From contig JAPKZB010000004.1 of assembly GCA_026393985.1 (NCBI GenBank), positions 62,001-126,000 on the forward strand: a stretch of DNA of 64,000 nt, read 5' to 3'. Positions 2,392 to 39,694 of the stretch are shown here, piece by piece (the stretch's first letter is position 1; the number at the start of each line of letters is the position of its first letter). Below the pieces are notes generated by a model. The model saw nothing but the letters and a program-made list of their open reading frames with translations. It was not told where the DNA came from and searched no databases. Source of the DNA: Acidobacteriota bacterium (lineage in GTDB: Bacteria; Acidobacteriota; Terriglobia; Bryobacterales; Bryobacteraceae). A program made the translations under genes and the position numbers.

Positions 2392-5019
2392 ATGGACCCG
2401 GAACGCCTTCGCCTCATCGAAACCGATAAACGCGAACGCCACTGGCGCCGCTGGGGACCCTACCTCAGCGACCGCGCCTGGGGCACCGTCCGCGAAGACT
2501 ACTCGGAAACGGGCACCGCCTGGGACTACTTCCCCTTTGAACACGCCCATCTGCGCGCCTATCGCTGGAGCGAAGACGGCCTGCTCGGCATCTGCGACAA
2601 CCACCAGCGCCTCTGCTTCGGCCTGGCGCTGTGGAACGGGAAAGATCCCATCCTCAAAGAGCGCCTCTACGGCCTCGGCGGACCGCAGGGCAATCACTCC
2701 GAAGACGTCAAAGAACTCTACTACTACCTCGACTCCACCCCCACCCACTCCTACATGAAGGCGCTCTACAAGTACCCCCAGGCCGCCTTCCCCTATCAAC
2801 ACCTCCGCGAAGTCAACCAGCAGCGCAGCCGCCACGAACGCGAATACGAACTCCTCGACACCGGCATCTTCGACGAAGATCGCTACTTCGACATCCAGAT
2901 CGAATACGCCAAAGCCGACATCGACGACATCGTCATCGAAATCACCGCCACCAACCGCGGCCCCGACCCCGCCCCCCTCACCATCCTCCCGCAGCTCTGG
3001 TTCCGCAACACCTGGACCTGGGGCCGCTCCCACTCCCCCAAGCCCGTCCTCTATCGCATCAACGATCGCACCATCGCCTGCAAACACCAGGACCTCGGCC
3101 ACTACGTCTTCACCTTCGCCGAACCCACCCAACTCCTGTTCACCGAAAACAACGGCGACAACGAAAGGCTCTGGGGCAGCCCCAACGCGGGCTACGTCAA
3201 AAGCGCCTTCCATCGCTATCTCCTCGAACGCCAGACCAACGCCGTCAACCCCGCCCACTCCGGCACCAAAGCCGCCGGCCTGTTCTCCTTCACCCTCGCC
3301 CCCGGCGAGTCCCGCACCATCACCGCCCGCCTCACCGGCCTCAAAGACGACGCCGACCTCCCCGCCACCATCTACCCCGACGAGGTCCTCGCCAACCGAC
3401 GCGCCGAAGCCGACCGCTTCTTTAAAGGCGTCCACAGCGTCCCGCTCTCCGAAGACGGCAACCGCATCTTCCGCCAGGCCATGGCGGGCCTCCTCTGGAC
3501 CAAACAGTTCTACCACTTCGTCATTGAAGATTGGTTGAAGGGCGACCCCAACACCCCGCCCCCGCCCGAACGCCGCAAGCACGGCCGCAACGCGGAATGG
3601 GGGCACCTGTTCAACGACGACATCATCTCCATGCCCGACAAATGGGAGTACCCGTGGTATGCCGCCTGGGATTCGGCCTTCCACATGATCCCCATGGCGA
3701 TGATCGACCCCGGCTTCGCCAAAAGCCAGCTGAAGCTCTTCCTGCGCGAGTGGTACATGCACCCCAACGGCCAGATCCCGGCCTACGAATGGGCCTTCGG
3801 CGATGTCAACCCGCCCGTCCACGCCTGGGCCGTCCATCGCGTCTTCCAGATCGACGCCCGCCTCACCGGCCACCGCGACTACGCCTTCCTCGAACGCTGC
3901 TTCCACAAGCTCCTCATGAACTTCACCTGGTGGGTCAACCGCAAAGACACCACCGGCAACAACGTCTTTGAAGGTGGCTTCCTCGGCCTCGACAACATCG
4001 GCGTCTTCGACCGCTCCTCCCCCCTCCCCACCGGCGGCACCATCGAACAGTCCGACGGCACCAGTTGGATGGCCATGTACTGCCTGAACATGCTCACCAT
4101 CGCCCTCGACCTCGCCGAACACAACCGCGCCTACGAGGACATCGCCAGCAAGTTCTTCGAACACTTCCTCTACATCGCGAGCGCCATGAACAAGCCCGGC
4201 GCCGAGAGCCTCTGGGATGAACAGGACGGCTTCTACTACGACCTGCTCCGCGTCCCAAACCGCGAACCCTTCCGCATGCGCATCCGCAGCATGGTCGGCA
4301 TCATCCCCCTGTTCGCCGTCACCACCATCGACGCAACGCAAATCGCCAACCTCCACGGCTTCCGCCATCGCATGCAGTGGTTCATGCGCCACCGTCCGGA
4401 CCTGTGCCACAACATCGCCTCGCTGTTCGACCGCGGCCAGCACGAACGAGTCCTGCTCTCGGTGGTCACCCCCGACAAGCTCCGCCGCATCCTCCGCCGC
4501 CTCGTCGACCCCAACGAGTTCCTCTCCGACTTCGGCATCCGGGCCCTCTCGAAGTTCCATAAGGACAGCCCGTTTGAACTGCACGTCAACCAGGACGTCT
4601 ACCGCGTCAGCTACGAACCCGCCGAGTCCACCACCTACCTGTTCGGCGGCAACTCCAACTGGCGCGGCCCCATCTGGTTCCCCGTCAACTACCTCCTCAT
4701 CGAGTCGCTCCAGAAATTTCATTTCTACTTCGGCGACAACTTCACGGTCGACTACCCGCTCGGCACCGGCGACCGCGTCAACCTCTGGGAGCTCGCCCAG
4801 GCGCTCTCCCACCGCCTCACCAATCTGTTCACCCGCGACGCCCAGGGCCACCGCCCGGTCTTCGGTCCCTATCCCAAACACCAGACCGATCCCGAGTTCA
4901 AGGATCATCTCCTCTTCTTTGAGTACTTCAACGGCGACACCGGCGAAGGGCTCGGCGCCAGCCACCAGACGGGCTGGACCGCGCTCATCGCCAAGCTGAT
5001 CGCGCAAAACGGAGAGTAA
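2392..5019 (+). CDS. GH63-like glucosidase (MGH1-type glycoside hydrolase)
   Basis: An 875-residue protein without a signal peptide, probably cytoplasmic. It has the (alpha/alpha)6 barrel layout of the GH63/mannosylglycerate-hydrolase group: an N-terminal beta domain (about 1-340), then [13 protein letters not shown] with D427 at the position of the expected general acid, and a C-terminal [19 protein letters not shown] with E852 as candidate base. These assignments come from family knowledge; the substrate (an alpha-glucoside or oligosaccharide) is inferred. Its ATG comes 3 nt after the stop of the upstream gene, and the next gene starts 4 nt after its stop, so it is in an operon with a secreted amidohydrolase, an alcohol dehydrogenase and a beta-propeller. 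Confidence 0.88.
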
Positions 5020-5022
5020 CCA

Positions 5023-6447
5023 GTGCGCCTGCTCGTATTCCTGCTCCTGCTCGCCCTGTCCGCCGCCGCCCAGCCCCAGCACGGCGTCCGCCCCACCCGC
5101 ATGATCATCCAGGGAGCCACGGTCGTCGAAGGCACCGGCACCCCGGCCCAGGGCCCGCTCGATATCACCATCGAAAACGGCCTCATCACCCAGATCGCCC
5201 GCGGCGCCCAGCCTCGCCCCGGCGACACCATCGTCGACGCCCGCGGCAAGTACGTCATCCCCGGACTCATCAACATGCACGGCCACCTCCACCAGGAGCG
5301 CGGCGGCGTCCCCATGGACCCGAACTACGTCCTCAAGCTGTGGCTCGCCTGCGGCATCACCACGGTCCGAGACGTCGGCAGCGCGCTCCAGTTCACCCTC
5401 GACGCCAAAGCCAAATCCGAACGCGGCGAAATCGCCGCTCCCCGCCTGTTCGTCTATCCCATGCTCGGCCGCCCCGGCACACCCGAAGCCGCCGTCAACC
5501 GCGTCAAAGAGCTCAAGGCCCGCGGCGCCGACGGCATGAAGATCGTCGGCGCCTGGCGCAACACCTTCGACGCCGCCGCCCGGGAAGCCAAAGCCGCCAG
5601 TCTGCCCATCGCCATCCACATCGGCGTTGAGGAGACCAACGCCACCGACGCCATTCGCAACCAGGTCGCCACCATCGAACATTGGTACGGCATCCCCGAC
5701 GCCGCCCTCCCCGCCGGCGTCCAAAACTTCCCCTCAAGCTACAACTACCTCAACGAAGCCGACCGCTTCCGCTACGCCGGCCGCCTCTGGCGCGAAGCCG
5801 ACCCCCAAAAGCTCGGCGCCGTCCTCGACGCCATGGTCGCTCAAGGCGTCGCCTGGGACCCGACGCTCGAAATCTACGAAGCCTCCCGCGACCTGCAGCG
5901 CGCCCAAAATCAACCCTGGTTCCGCGACTACCTCCACCCCGCGCTGGGTTCGTTTTTCACCCCCAACCTTGAAAACCACGGCAGCTACTTCATCAACTGG
6001 TCGAGCACCGACGAAGCCTTCTGGAAAGAAAACTACCGTCTCTGGTTCGCCGCCGTCCGCGACTTTGAAGCCCGCGGCGGCACTCTCACCATGGGCGAAG
6101 ACGCCGGCTACATCTATCAGATGTATGGCTTCGGCATGCTCCGCAATCTCGAACTCCACCAGGAGGCCGGCTTCCATCCGCTCCGCGTCCTCCGCCACGC
6201 CACCGTCAACGGCGCCCGGGTGCTGCGCGCGGAAAACACGATCGGCCGCGTCCGCGCCGGCTGGTCGGCCGACCTGCTCATCGTCAACGGCAACCCGCTC
6301 GAAGACTTCAAGGTCCTCTACCCGGTCTCGCCCAACGCCGGCACCCGCACCGGCATCGAATGGACCATCAAGGCCGGCTTCCCCTACCACGTCCCCCGGC
6401 TTCTGTCCGAAGTGAAGTCCCTCGTCGAACAGGCACGCAAGCCATGA
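5023..6447 (+). CDS. Secreted amidohydrolase family protein
   Basis: A 474-residue protein starting at GTG, preceded by GGAGAG about 9 nt upstream. Residues 1-16 form a signal peptide ending AAA-Q. It carries the full set of amidohydrolase metal ligands: H86 and H88 (MHGHLH), K173 (MKIVG, possible carboxylated lysine), H199 (AIHIG), H220 (IEHWYG) and D360 (MGEDAG). The closest recognisable group is imidazolonepropionase/prolidase-like hydrolases, but the substrate cannot be read from sequence. An export signal on a dinuclear-metal hydrolase suggests periplasmic action. It overlaps the following gene by the classic ATGA, supporting translational coupling. Confidence 0.88.
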   Translation: MRLLVFLLLLALSAAAQPQHGVRPTRMIIQGATVVEGTGTPAQGPLDITIENGLITQIARGAQPRPGDTIVDARGKYVIPGLINMHGHLHQERGGVPMDPNYVLKLWLACGITTVRDVGSALQFTLDAKAKSERGEIAAPRLFVYPMLGRPGTPEAAVNRVKELKARGADGMKIVGAWRNTFDAAAREAKAASLPIAIHIGVEETNATDAIRNQVATIEHWYGIPDAALPAGVQNFPSSYNYLNEADRFRYAGRLWREADPQKLGAVLDAMVAQGVAWDPTLEIYEASRDLQRAQNQPWFRDYLHPALGSFFTPNLENHGSYFINWSSTDEAFWKENYRLWFAAVRDFEARGGTLTMGEDAGYIYQMYGFGMLRNLELHQEAGFHPLRVLRHATVNGARVLRAENTIGRVRAGWSADLLIVNGNPLEDFKVLYPVSPNAGTRTGIEWTIKAGFPYHVPRLLSEVKSLVEQARKP

Positions 6448-7505
6448 ACCCGCCTCCTCCTCTTCTGTATGGCCCCGGCGCGCTCGCGCAGGTCGGCGAT
6501 CTGGCCCGCCGCCTCGGCTTCCGCCGCACCCTCGTCGTCGCCGACCACGGCATGGAGCAGGCCGGCCACATCGGCGCGCTCGTCGCCACGCTCTCCACCG
6601 CCGGCGTCGAATGCACCCCCTGGTCCTGCTTCAGCGCCAATCCCGATTCGGCCATGATCGAACACGGCCGCGCCTTCGCCGCCCAACTCGGCATCGACTC
6701 CCTCATCGGCCTCGGCGGCGGCAGCTCGCTCGACGCCGCCAAGGGCATCAACTTCGTCCTCACCAACGGCGGGACCATGAAGGACTACTGGGGCTACGGC
6801 AAGGCCACGCAACCGCTGCTGCCCATGCTCGGGATCCCGGCCACCACCGGCACCGGCAGCGAAGCGCAATCTTACGCCCTCATCAGCGACCCCGAAACCC
6901 ACGTCAAAATGGCCTGCGGCGACCCCATGGCTTCGTTTCGCTACGCCGTGCTCGACCCGCTGCTGACGCTCTCGCAGCCCCCGGCTGTCCGCGCCGCCGC
7001 CGGCTACGATGCCTTGAGTCACGCCGTCGAAAGTTACGTCACGACGAAACGAACCCAAGCCTCCCAGCTGTTCGCCCGCCAGGCCTGGAGCCTGCTGCAC
7101 GAAAGCTACGCCGCCCCCGCTTCGCTCGAATCAAACGCCAACCTCCAGCTCGGCGCCTGGTTCGCCGGCTGCGCCATTGAAGCCTCCATGCTTGGCGCCG
7201 CCCACGCCTGCGCCAACCCGCTCACCGCCCGCTACGGCATCACGCACGGCGTCGCCATCGCCATCCTGCTGCCCCACGTCGTCCGCTGGAACGCCTGCCC
7301 GGAGTACGCCGACCTCCACCCGGACCTGGCCGGCTACCTGGCCGAACTCGCCATCGGCCTCGCCTTGCCTCTCCGCGAATGCGGCGTCACGATGGAGGTA
7401 CTGCCCCAGCTCGCCCGCGACGCGGCGCAGCAGTGGACCGGCCGCCACAACCCGCGCCCGTTTGACGCCGCCGCCGCCCTCGAACTCTACCAATGCGCCT
7501 ACTGA
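6444..7505 (+). CDS. Iron-containing alcohol dehydrogenase
   Basis: A 353-residue protein. The start is the ATG at 6444, which overlaps the upstream stop as ATGA; a longer in-frame reading would extend into the previous gene. It shows the group III dehydrogenase pattern: GLGGGSSLDAAKG for the dinucleotide, and metal ligands D189, H193, H254 and H268 (GYDALSHAVES, AAHACANPL, GITHG), with the late HNPRPF segment near the C-terminus. It should oxidise an alcohol or reduce an aldehyde with NAD(P); substrate unknown. It ends 13 nt inside the next gene, so the cluster is tightly co-transcribed. Confidence 0.9.
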   Translation: MNPPPPLLYGPGALAQVGDLARRLGFRRTLVVADHGMEQAGHIGALVATLSTAGVECTPWSCFSANPDSAMIEHGRAFAAQLGIDSLIGLGGGSSLDAAKGINFVLTNGGTMKDYWGYGKATQPLLPMLGIPATTGTGSEAQSYALISDPETHVKMACGDPMASFRYAVLDPLLTLSQPPAVRAAAGYDALSHAVESYVTTKRTQASQLFARQAWSLLHESYAAPASLESNANLQLGAWFAGCAIEASMLGAAHACANPLTARYGITHGVAIAILLPHVVRWNACPEYADLHPDLAGYLAELAIGLALPLRECGVTMEVLPQLARDAAQQWTGRHNPRPFDAAAALELYQCAY

Positions 7506-8581
7506 TCCCCGCCCTTACCCTCCTGTCTTCCGCCCTCCTGGCGCAATGGCCCCAGTTCCGCGGCAACCCCGCGCTCACCGGCGTCGCCCCCGCCGGCGCG
7601 CCCCCGGCCCAGCTCAAACTGCTCTGGACCTGGGAGGGCGGCCAGCAGTTTGAATCCTCGCCCATTCTCGCCGACGGTGTCGTCTACATCGGCTCCGGCG
7701 CCGGCGATCTGGTCGCCATCGACCTCGCCTCCGGCAAGACCAAATGGAAGTACGCCGCCGGCAGCGAGATCGGCGAGTCGACCCCGGCCATCGCCAACGG
7801 CATCGTCTACGTCGGCGACCTCAAAGGCGTCCTCCACGCCGTCAACGCCTCCGATGGCAAAGGGCTTTGGAAGTACCAGACGGCCACGGAAATCAAATCC
7901 TCCCCGGTCGTGGCGGGTGGCCGGGTGCTCGTCGGCAGCTACGACCAGAACCTCTACGCCTTCGAGGCGCGCACCGGCAAGCTGGCCTGGAAGTATGAGA
8001 CCACCGGCCCGATCCACGGCACCCCCGCCATCAAAGACGGCGTGGCCTACGTCACCGGCTGCGACGAACACTTCCGCGCCATCCGGATCACCGATGGCAA
8101 GGAGCTCTTTGAAGTACCCAGCGGCGCCTACACCGGCGCGAGCCCGCTGCTGGCCGGCAACATGGCCTACTTCGGCACCTTCGGCAACGAGGTCTACGGC
8201 GTCGATATGGCGGCCAAGAAAATCGTTTGGCGCTACGAGCACCCCGTGCGCAAGTTCCCCTACTACTCGAGCGCGACGCTTGTCGATGGCAAAGTGATTC
8301 TCGGCGGACGCGACAAGATGGTCCACGCCATCGACGCCCGGACCGGCAAAGGCGTCTGGACTTTCACGACCCGCAGCCGCGTCGAATCGAGCCCGGCGGC
8401 GGCCGAGGGCCGCGTCTACATCGGGTCGAACGACGGCCGCTTTTATGTTCTTGAAGCCGCCACGGGCAAAAAGCTGTGGGAGTACGAGGCCGGCGCCGCG
8501 CTATCCAGCAGCCCGGCCATCGGGCAGGGCAAGGTGGTCATCGCCGCGCAGGACGGCCGCGTGTTCTGCTTCGGCGGCTGA
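7493..8581 (+). CDS. Secreted PQQ-like beta-propeller repeat protein
   Basis: A 362-residue protein with a signal peptide (1-17, ending LLAQW). The rest is a series of about eight ~40-residue blades of the type GVVYIGSGAGDLVAIDLASGKTKWKY, the pattern of PQQ-like/BamB-type beta-propellers. No PQQ-ligand or catalytic domain is evident, so this is more likely a binding or scaffold protein than a quinoprotein dehydrogenase. The ATG lies inside the 3' end of the alcohol dehydrogenase gene (13-nt overlap). Whether it works with that enzyme, for example as an electron-transfer or assembly partner, is only suggested by the coupling. Confidence 0.88.
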   Translation: MRLLIPALTLLSSALLAQWPQFRGNPALTGVAPAGAPPAQLKLLWTWEGGQQFESSPILADGVVYIGSGAGDLVAIDLASGKTKWKYAAGSEIGESTPAIANGIVYVGDLKGVLHAVNASDGKGLWKYQTATEIKSSPVVAGGRVLVGSYDQNLYAFEARTGKLAWKYETTGPIHGTPAIKDGVAYVTGCDEHFRAIRITDGKELFEVPSGAYTGASPLLAGNMAYFGTFGNEVYGVDMAAKKIVWRYEHPVRKFPYYSSATLVDGKVILGGRDKMVHAIDARTGKGVWTFTTRSRVESSPAAAEGRVYIGSNDGRFYVLEAATGKKLWEYEAGAALSSSPAIGQGKVVIAAQDGRVFCFGG

Positions 8582-37667: not shown

Positions 37668-38510
37668 GTCGTTCTTCTTGTCGATCCGCATCCGCTGCAT
37701 GATCACGGGCCCGTTTTGATCGCCGGAGGCCAGGGTGTAATCCGGAGGCATTTCAAAGAGGAGCCGCGACGGTTCGCCCTTGCGCAGATTGGTGAGCCGG
37801 TAGGTGGTTTCCCCGGTGCGGGGGTCCTTGCGCGTCGAGAGCACCACGGTCTTCAACTCGATGGACACCCAGCGTTCGCTGATGGTGACGAGGGGAAGGT
37901 CGTTGCCGACGGACCCGGCCGGGACAGTGACGGTGGTGCGGGTTCCTTCGGACTCGGTGCCTTCGATCATGCGCTTGCCGAGCGGTTCGGTTTTGGTATC
38001 GAAGGGCGATTTGTCGCCGGCCGGGCTGGCGGTCCGCGCAAACCGGATGACATCGGGCGCGGGGCCGCCGGGCGGCGGGGCCATGGTGGTGAAAAACATC
38101 ACGTTTTTGCCCTGGGCCCCGGGCGGAAGCTCCGGTAGCGCGATTTTCCGAGCGGTTTTCTTTTGGTTCTCGAGGATCAGATCGACCTTGGCGACGGGAT
38201 CGTGGATAAACGTGACCGGCCCCATCTCGCGGCGGGTACGGCCCTCGGCATCGCGCGCGTAGATCTCGCTGCGCTTTGACGTGATGCGGTTGCCGTCGGG
38301 CAACTGCTGCAAGGTTTCGGTGACGAACTCGCCAGAAAACGGCGCACCCTTGACGAGAGTCATCTCGATCGAAACTTCCGGACCGATGTTCCAGGCCGGG
38401 CCGGCTTGGCCGATCTCAATCCGCTCAGCGTGTACCCCGCCGGACGGCAGGGGCGACTGCCCCTGGGCCAACACTCCCGCGATCAGTCCGAGTCCCAAAA
38501 CATTTTTCAT
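37665..38510 (-). CDS. Secreted protein, function unknown
   Basis: 281 residues. MKNVLGLGLIAGVLAQGQ is a short signal peptide. The rest is a beta-rich chain: FVTETLQQLPDGNRITSKRSEIYARDAEGRTRREMGPVTFIHDPVAKVDLILENQKKTARKIALP and TVTVPAGSVGNDLPLVTISERWVSIELKTVVLSTRKDPRTGETTYRLTNLRKGEPSRLLFEMPPDY. This has the style of Acidobacteriota periplasmic proteins that track outer-membrane lipid or reporter data, but I cannot name a family. A good ribosome site (AAGGAGAAAGGG) precedes the ATG. Confidence 0.78.
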   Translation of the reverse strand: MKNVLGLGLIAGVLAQGQSPLPSGGVHAERIEIGQAGPAWNIGPEVSIEMTLVKGAPFSGEFVTETLQQLPDGNRITSKRSEIYARDAEGRTRREMGPVTFIHDPVAKVDLILENQKKTARKIALPELPPGAQGKNVMFFTTMAPPPGGPAPDVIRFARTASPAGDKSPFDTKTEPLGKRMIEGTESEGTRTTVTVPAGSVGNDLPLVTISERWVSIELKTVVLSTRKDPRTGETTYRLTNLRKGEPSRLLFEMPPDYTLASGDQNGPVIMQRMRIDKKND

Positions 38511-38528
38511 ATTCCCTTTCTCCTTCTG

Positions 38529-38773
38529 AATTATTACACCGACGAGACCAGACGAATGGGCCCGAAGGTTCCGGCTCGTCAGCCGGTCCCGTTCCTACCG
38601 GCATCCCGTATCCGGCCAAGGTCATCCGCGGAACAGCAGCCCGGAAAATGCCTGCCCGTTGCATCGGCCCAACGGCGAGGGCCCGGCCGGGATGAAGGGC
38701 TGCGGCGCCGGCTCGGCGTAGCTCATCTCTTCGACCAGACACAGCAGAAGGGACTCACCTTCGGCGCTCGCGA
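38529..38773. other. Non-coding stretch, no gene recognised
   Basis: Frames are open on both strands, but no domain, start/ribosome-site pair or codon bias supports a gene. It borders the inverted-repeat element, and may contain decayed sequence. Confidence 0.4.
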
Positions 38774-38988
38774 GAAATGACCCACCCCTGCTCACCAAAA
38801 GTTGACCACCAGTCAGGACCGGATTCCGCGATATCTGCGCCGAGTGAGGTCTCGTGGCGCGCGGCCGCGCCGCGCGGATGAGAGCGCCCCCGCGCACCCG
38901 TGCCGTGCCACGTGGCGACGGGTGTTTTCGACGTGGTCAACTCTATCCGAGCAGAAGTGGTCAACTTTTGGTGAGCGCCGAGGCTCAC
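38774..38988. mobile_element. Mobile-element relic with 20-bp perfect inverted repeats (MITE- or IS21-end-like)
   Basis: GCTCACCAAAAGTTGACCAC at 38791-38810 is perfectly inverted at 38957-38976, framing 186 bp. Additional copies of the core are nearby: GTGGTCAACT at 38933-38942, and TGACCCACC just outside the left arm. A GTGAGC/GCTCAC hairpin sits at 38971-38988. Repeated GGTCA-type ends are typical of IS21-family termini, but no transposase or IstB gene is present and no target-site duplication is obvious. It could be a non-autonomous element or the joined ends of a deleted IS. The inside is very GC-rich and has no convincing gene. Confidence 0.5.
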
Positions 38989-39145
38989 GGAGCTCGGTCG
39001 GCAGGGTGGGGGTGAGCATCCGCAACTGGCCGGGCAGATCAGCCTGCTGTCGATCCTGGCGTGGATCGACGGCGACCTCCACCTCGTCTTCCGGAATGGC
39101 TTTGTATCGTCGGTCGACGGCGGCGTGCTTGGTTTCCGATTTTTT

Positions 39146-39694
39146 CTAGACGAGCGAGCGGCGCACGGCCCGCCGGATCGGCTCCGGCAGCAGGTACTCG
39201 TCAAAGCGGTCCACGGGACACCAGGCCGTGGCACGGACCTCATCCGATCCTGCCACGACCGCCGAAGCCGCCCGGAAGCGGAAGATCAGGTCGTGATGGA
39301 GATGGAACGGTTCTTTTTTGCGGCCCGGAATACCGTGGACGTCGAGACCGACAAGGGTCGGGCCGTTCGAGGCATCGAGTACGACGCCGGTCTCTTCAAC
39401 GGCCTCGCGGCGCGCGCTGCCGGCGATGGTGGTATCGCGATCGGCTTCGACGTGACCGCCGGGCAGCAGCCAGCGGTCCAGGCGCCGATGGTGAACGAGC
39501 AGCACGGCTGGCTCAGCCGGATGAATGACGCAGGCGGTGGCGGTCACGTGGCCAGGCGCGAACTGGTTGCGGGCAAAGGGATAGGGCGTTTCGCGCAGCA
39601 GCTGCAGAATCAGTTCGCGGCTTTTCCAGGCCTCGCCATCGCGCTCGTCCTCCCAGGCGGTGACCAGCGACTGCACGGCAAAGGGTTCGAGCAC
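39146..39694 (-). CDS. NUDIX hydrolase
   Basis: 182 residues starting at GTG directly after the stop of the upstream hydrolase gene. The Nudix box is GGHVEADRDTTIAGSARREAVEETGV, with the REAVEETG glutamates intact and a two-residue longer first half than the textbook box, a variant common in GGHVE-type members. VTATACVIHPAEPAVLLVHH precedes it. It should hydrolyse a nucleoside diphosphate derivative; substrate unknown. Confidence 0.9.
   Translation of the reverse strand: MLEPFAVQSLVTAWEDERDGEAWKSRELILQLLRETPYPFARNQFAPGHVTATACVIHPAEPAVLLVHHRRLDRWLLPGGHVEADRDTTIAGSARREAVEETGVVLDASNGPTLVGLDVHGIPGRKKEPFHLHHDLIFRFRAASAVVAGSDEVRATAWCPVDRFDEYLLPEPIRRAVRRSLV

Follow-up and report, generated by a model that had tools for sequence, protein, structure and literature searches.

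A gene-less element within a sigma factor gene remnant

Within the window (the whole 64-kb stretch of DNA analysed here), the remnant of an ECF-type sigma factor gene lies at positions 38622–39145 on the reverse strand, beside a NUDIX gene, and is interrupted by a 225-bp MITE at 38759–38983 (given, with its ends, arms and hairpin, on the forward strand). 'ECF' is our own label for the combination of Sigma70_r2 and r4 domains, and, apart from the interruption, the window gene is itself a remnant, lacking its N-terminal part and having a diverged C-terminal part. The MITE sits directly between two copies of CTCAC (38754–38758 and 38984–38988), which comparison of the flanks identifies as a 5-bp target duplication. 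Its ends were set by this duplication and by the points at which likeness to a second copy, on contig C74 of the source genome, stops: the similarity spans approximately CTTCGGCGCTC to GAGCGCCGAGG, with none beyond. At 225 bp and without a transposase gene, the unit lies within the length of less than about 500 bp that applies to MITEs.

The element carries a pair of perfect 20-bp inverted arms, GCTCACCAAAAGTTGACCAC at 38790–38809 and GTGGTCAACTTTTGGTGAGC at 38957–38976, separated by a spacer of 147 nt. They form the sole perfect 20-bp inverted repeat with a spacer of up to 300 bp in the 64-kb window, and 30 dinucleotide shuffles contained no inverted repeat of 16 bp or longer. The original prediction had placed these arms at 38791–38976, around a 186-bp unit; the perfect repeat is confirmed, but its start was given one base late, the real extent of the unit is 225 bp and the register of the arms needs correcting. 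On the left, GGTCAA-type repeats begin at 38778 (L1) and 38802 (L2); their right-hand counterparts begin at 38933 (R2) and 38957 (R1). We name them by analogy with IS21, and they are spaced by 24 bp at either end. From these positions, the perfect arms pair the inner left repeat, around L2, with the outer right repeat, around R1. In register, the left end (38759–38811) and the right end (38931–38983) form a terminal inverted repeat with 36 of 53 positions identical, reported by a repeat-finding search as 49 nt at 71%, and the element therefore reaches 31 bp to the left and 7 bp to the right of the 20-bp arms. The left end resembles those of full-length IS21-type elements, and the right end was delimited by the repeat search, the register and comparison with full-length ends. 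The extra partial copies noticed earlier inside and outside the arms are indeed present, GTGGTCAACT at 38933–38942 and TGACCCACC from 38778, and are parts of the MITE ends.

As had been predicted, no recognisable gene lies within the MITE; the frames that cross it overrun its ends and are taken as chance. Rfam gave no match in the window at gathering scores, a tRNA scan of the window found nothing and no sigma-70-consensus promoter is present in 38400–39300. The interior holds a GC-rich hairpin followed by GATGA (38858–38881), identified by its fold and by alignment to the first of the hairpins in full-length tails, and a palindrome, GCCACGTGGC (38907–38916).

The NUDIX gene adjoining the MITE locus is present in 18 of the 19 genomes of the genus, the source genome included, and at 11 of the 17 relatives' loci it stands beside an uninterrupted sigma factor ORF; the intact ORF at one of them, L104, carries the Sigma70_r2 and r4 domains. 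At six loci (L104–L108 and L111), the two flanks of the MITE align to near-adjacent residues, with identities of 56–61% upstream and 52–61% downstream. The single residue left between the aligned flanks begins the downstream piece and falls outside the local alignment, so that, with the duplicated target bases counted once, no sequence has been lost or gained at the site. A motif search found no sigma factor ORF at the other six of the 17 loci; the L110 locus looks damaged, and at L109 and L120 the place is taken by other genes. The original prediction had named a regulatory hairpin conserved in place among relatives as an outcome that would speak against it, and the 11 uninterrupted loci instead read through without the unit.

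Dispersed copies and their flanks

The other outcome named as contrary was an arm unique in the genome. The arm sequence occurs in the source genome at three exact places and at two more with one mismatch. The second full copy of the MITE, on C74, aligns with 223 matches, 2 mismatches and one 31-bp gap, and is flanked by an exact 8-bp duplication, ATCTGGAA; judged by this near-identical copy, the insertion in the window is probably recent. MITE-matching DNA was found in at least 27 of 121 genomes, the source included (the best six candidates per genome being scored). When nine genomes were rescanned with a copy from genome G016 as the query, G016 gave 22 matches, which fall at about 20 distinct places and include 6 of near full length, G012 gave 19 and the remaining genomes gave 2–8 each. 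These matches are pieces, sometimes less than whole copies, and since several in G016 are cut by contig ends, its whole copies may number fewer. Copies at unrelated sites in the source genome and in G016, G004, G012, G006 and G013 align over the entire unit, including the junction.

We gathered 26 MITE-like elements by means of their ends, of which 24 have flanking sequence on both sides, L060 and L085 having been dropped because a contig end cuts the flank. An exact duplication of at least 5 bp flanks 14 of these 24, as against 2 of 552 crossed pairs of left and right flanks; among the remaining ten, four have 8 bp with one mismatch, one has 4 bp and five have no duplication. The exact duplications are 5–9 bp long, the longest including a base that possibly belongs to the element, and the 5 bp of the window copy compares with 7–9 bp in most copies. 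A separate count over 13 copies, in which one mismatch in 8 or 9 was accepted as a hit, found duplications in 10 of 13 versus 1 of 156 crossed pairs. G006_C552 and G015_C160 (left end unrecognised) and G066_C115 (right end unrecognised) were omitted before this second count, and G016_C110, with a 5-base flank, was left out of it. Flanks for the duplication counts were transcribed by hand. The end pattern missed further known places (for example, four in G013, and C345 and C553 in G012), so the 24 elements represent a sample with well-kept ends. Because the short unit is multi-copy and its copies mostly carry target duplications, it moves as a unit, which bears out the first of two readings in the original prediction, that of a non-autonomous mobile element.

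Five of the 26 elements (L043, L045, L048, L071 and L102, from G018, G066, G021 and G008) have the same kind of outer ends with different interiors, and are 167–349 bp long.

Full-length relatives with istA and istB

Genomes of the same bacterial family contain full-length elements whose ends are of the same kind, most of them 3.95–4.1 kb long and carrying istA and istB. They include L064 (4106 bp, a whole contig), L144 (4056 bp), L231 (3963 bp, in the three-contig genome G264), L232 (4094 bp), L235 (4055 bp), L236 (3961 bp) and L238 (4008 bp), along with two that are longer than most, L146 (4384 bp) and L233 (4647 bp). An exact 8-bp duplication, GCTGAAGG, flanks L231, and the duplications of L232 and L238 are AGTATG and GTCTAT, respectively. 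Overall, three of the seven full-length elements with both flanks have a duplication of at least 6 bp and four have none of 5 bp or more; L146 (G019_C247) and the decayed L063 (G043_C10) are likewise without one.

The genes are arranged in the order small CxxC-type ORF, ParB-like gene, istA, istB and tail ORF, although not every gene was found in each element, and istA and istB lie between such ends in, for example, L231, L232 and L238. The IstA of L064 matches the IS21 transposase model NF033546 at 178 bits (cut-off 160), and its IstB matches NF038214 at 231 bits (cut-off 200). The ParB-like protein of L064 scores 59.1 against TIGR00180 (cut-off 58.45) and falls under the Pfam cut-offs for ParB_N and HTH_ParB, the latter of which is exceeded by its relative in L075 (35.5 versus 22.6). 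For the CxxC-type and tail ORFs, neither Pfam nor NCBIfam models gave a match. A ParB-like gene of this kind occurs in at least 39 of 237 genomes of the family (the best eight candidates per genome being scored), and among 30 ParB-like loci, the stretch examined includes istA in 25 and the CxxC ORF in 20.

The ends of the ~4-kb group are CTTCGGCGC...GCGCCGAAG. The body of the MITE corresponds to the left end plus the 3′ tail of these elements, its interior aligning with the 3′ tail of four of them. The termini of the MITE and of the full-length elements are similar, not identical, reading CTTCGG...CCGAGG on the window MITE and CTTCGG...CCGAAG on full-length relatives whose proteins score above the IS21 model cut-offs. 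The terminal dinucleotides TG...CA, usual for the IS21 family, are absent from the ends of both. Target duplications in the IS21 family range from 4 to 8 bp, and those of the window copy (5 bp) and of the C74 copy (8 bp) fall within this range. Our IS21 assignment concerns the origin of the ends; the gene-less unit in the window is not itself classed as an IS21 element. In its anatomy it matches an IS21-type element stripped of genes, which also upholds the second reading of the original prediction, the fused ends of a deleted IS21-type element; the two readings are compatible. The search for the arm in the genome and its relatives, put forward with that prediction as a check, led both to a multi-copy unit with defined ends and to full IS21-type elements with like ends.

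Deletion derivatives of full elements occur as well. One in the source genome, L153 (G000:C64:129777-130708), has the start of istA fused to the tail ORF and adjoins another IstA-like frame; others are found in G043.

Hairpins of the 3′ tail and a palindrome of the MITEs

The tails of 19 full-length elements contain 37 hairpins of the form CNCGCC-TNC-GGCGNG-GATGA, with one to three per tail, against a mean of 0.3 and a maximum of 3 in 200 simple letter shuffles. The second pair of the hairpin alternates among A-T, G-C and C-G, being paired in 26 of 31 units with a three-base loop and unpaired in five. The window copy keeps the first tail hairpin, and the 31-bp gap relative to C74 removes the second. 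As side observations, the hairpin loops are three or four bases long and mostly of the TNC type, the trailing motif extends to GATGAT, and the alternating second pair amounts to compensatory changes at one pair. With up to one mismatch allowed, the source genome yielded the hairpin motif at a single place, on C75, which was rejected as part of an element because no recognisable element lies there.

The palindrome GCCACGTGGC recurs in MITEs and in none of the 19 full-length tails. CACGTGG, inside TGCCACGTGGCA, is present in 16 of the 26 MITE-like elements versus 0 of the 19 tails. The combination of GCCACGTGGC with GGTCAACT 8–28 bases downstream occurs in 4 of the 19 genomes of the genus (12 places in G016, two each in the source genome and G012, and one in G010), and a reversed control pattern in none of the 19. 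This distribution suggests that the MITEs form a lineage with its own history, rather than being re-made from present parents.

Traces of a partner in the source genome

Three contigs of the source genome (C91, C22 and C80) begin inside the left ends of full-type elements, and right ends are found on C4 and C64. On C91, the one contig of the three that was tested for it, the CxxC ORF is represented by its first 21 residues. The outer ends of the full elements in this genome differ from those of the MITE at a few positions (TTTTCGTTAGCGCC versus TTTTGGTGAGCGCC). The IstA of the ~4-kb group has no match at 1e-30 in the source assembly, a lack that fits collapsed repeats. With no IstA of the group in the assembly, we infer the mobilising enzyme from the ends at contig edges and from the relatives: it would be the IstAB of full-length elements, still working in the source species.

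A profile search of the source genome with PF00665 pointed to three places, the best of which was set aside, looking by eye like an IS3-type frame; the other two were recorded as ORFs. PF01695 gave four places, three of them above the cut-off at 26–44 bits (the IstB of L064 scores 206). Contigs C27 and C35, which match the outer left motif with one mismatch, and C49, which matches the arm with three, were set aside, no element end being visible there by eye.

Origin of the element

We consider it very likely that the unit in the window is a MITE of IS21 origin, moved in trans by the IstA/IstB-type proteins of a full-length relative, and that this copy inserted into an ECF-type sigma factor gene or what remained of one. 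The proteins of the relative would recognise each end by its two spaced repeats and would move the gene-less unit in trans, duplicating approximately 5–8 bp of target; the window copy lies between codons that adjoin each other in relatives. This reading draws on features observed in the sequences compared, namely the ends, the duplication, the copies elsewhere, the uninterrupted sites of relatives and the full-length relatives with like ends. Counting against it are the lack of an IstA match in the source assembly, the five of 24 elements without a duplication and the one with 4 bp, the four of seven full-length elements without one of at least 5 bp, the likewise unduplicated L146 and L063, the 5-bp length of the window duplication, and the few positions at which the full-element ends of the source genome are unlike those of the MITE.

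The body of the unit matches what an internal deletion leaves, and deletion derivatives exist (the istA start joined to the tail ORF on C64 of the source genome, and those in G043), as would be expected if a full IS21-type element had lost its genes in place and the remaining unit had never moved. Such a one-off relic is nevertheless very improbable given the copies of the whole unit, junction included, at unrelated sites in the source genome, G016, G004, G012, G006 and G013, the duplications that most collected copies have of their own and the near identity of the window copy to that on C74.

The strand has a better fold than its shuffled versions (z = −4.8, with none of 200 as good), which could be taken to indicate a conserved hairpin that serves the neighbouring genes as a regulatory element or terminator; yet this fold is expected from the inverted ends, no terminator-like site lies within the unit, 11 of the 17 relatives' loci read through without it, and it has both a target duplication and a copy elsewhere. 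The internal GC-rich hairpin with its GATGA tail, a motif of the parental tails, also recalls a REP/BIME-type intergenic repeat moved by a RAYT (IS200/IS605-like) protein. REP/BIME repeats are palindromic units without target duplication, whereas duplications are present here, the ends are defined and hold two repeats at a spacing of 24 bp, ends of this kind also occur on elements with istA and istB, and the tail hairpin motif is confined to that one place in the source genome (up to one mismatch). On the strength of the uninterrupted loci, the duplications and the IS21-type ends, we reject both the regulatory hairpin and the REP-like repeat, giving either of them next to no chance.

As a MITE of IS21 origin, what looked like an odd hairpin becomes a mobile unit with exact ends. 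It suggests that MITEs can be amplified through IS21-type transposition, in which an ATPase partner and doubled end repeats are used, and the extra ParB-like gene in this IS21 group raises the question of the role of a partition-type protein in a transposon. More tentatively, and in our estimate rather unlikely when taken as a whole, a distinct, cross-phylum IS21 subgroup with a ParB-like protein and two further ORFs may have bred long-lived MITE lineages. These would keep the hairpin tail from the parental 3′ end and share a conserved palindrome, TGCCACGTGGCA, which lies 75 bp from the right end and has no parental counterpart. This palindrome would hint at a site for a DNA-binding protein of the host or the element, perhaps the ParB-like one, that aids the movement or tolerance of the MITEs.

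Comparison with known systems

For IS21-type ends, two direct repeats with 23 bp between them are described, each of which IstA requires, along with insertions that have 5-bp duplications (PMC10122671); a table of IS21 members from Paracoccus gives duplications of 7–8 bp (PMC3281130). The window MITE, like the IS21 family, has two spaced repeats per end, 24 bp apart here versus 23 bp (PMC10122671). Its full-length relatives, mostly 3.95–4.1 kb, contrast with the 1962–2572 bp of the IS21-family elements in two tables (PMC3189936, PMC3281130), and they have three extra ORFs (CxxC-type, ParB-like and tail) where family members have two CDSs in the entries that list them (PMC3189936). The window unit, unlike IS21-family elements, is without genes. 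In this it resembles MITEPsy1, MITEPsy2 and MITEAba12, which are likewise short, gene-less and multi-copy, with inverted ends, and are thought to depend on a related IS. The parent of MITEPsy1 is tabulated as 'IS5?' and that of MITEPsy2 as unknown (PMC3189936), whereas the parent here would be of the IS21 type.

The word IS21 is absent from the main text of a 2024 review of prokaryotic MITEs (PMC10969869). Among the titles and abstract openings listed for open-licence PMC articles, neither an IS21-derived MITE nor a ParB-carrying IS21 element was found, which is weak evidence in both cases. The MITE family of IS21 origin is ordinary in kind and, within those same titles and abstract openings, apparently undescribed.

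A counterpart of the full-length elements is found in another phylum. An element on plasmid pHRM2a of Desulforapulum autotrophicum (NC_012109; L230, approximately 3195–7931) has, in this order, a small ORF, ParB, IstA, IstB and a further small ORF, like the acidobacterial elements. Compared with L064, its IstA is 31%, its IstB 33% and its ParB 24% identical; the first small ORF is 24% alike (E = 0.001), and the last one, a CHC2 zinc finger, is unmatched to the acidobacterial tail ORF. By eye, its ends read CTATGGCGCTC...GAGCGCCATAG, have two repeats 24 bp apart and are flanked by an 8-bp duplication, GTGGAGGC. Given this likeness in gene order and end anatomy, the ~4-kb ParB group seems to extend across phyla.
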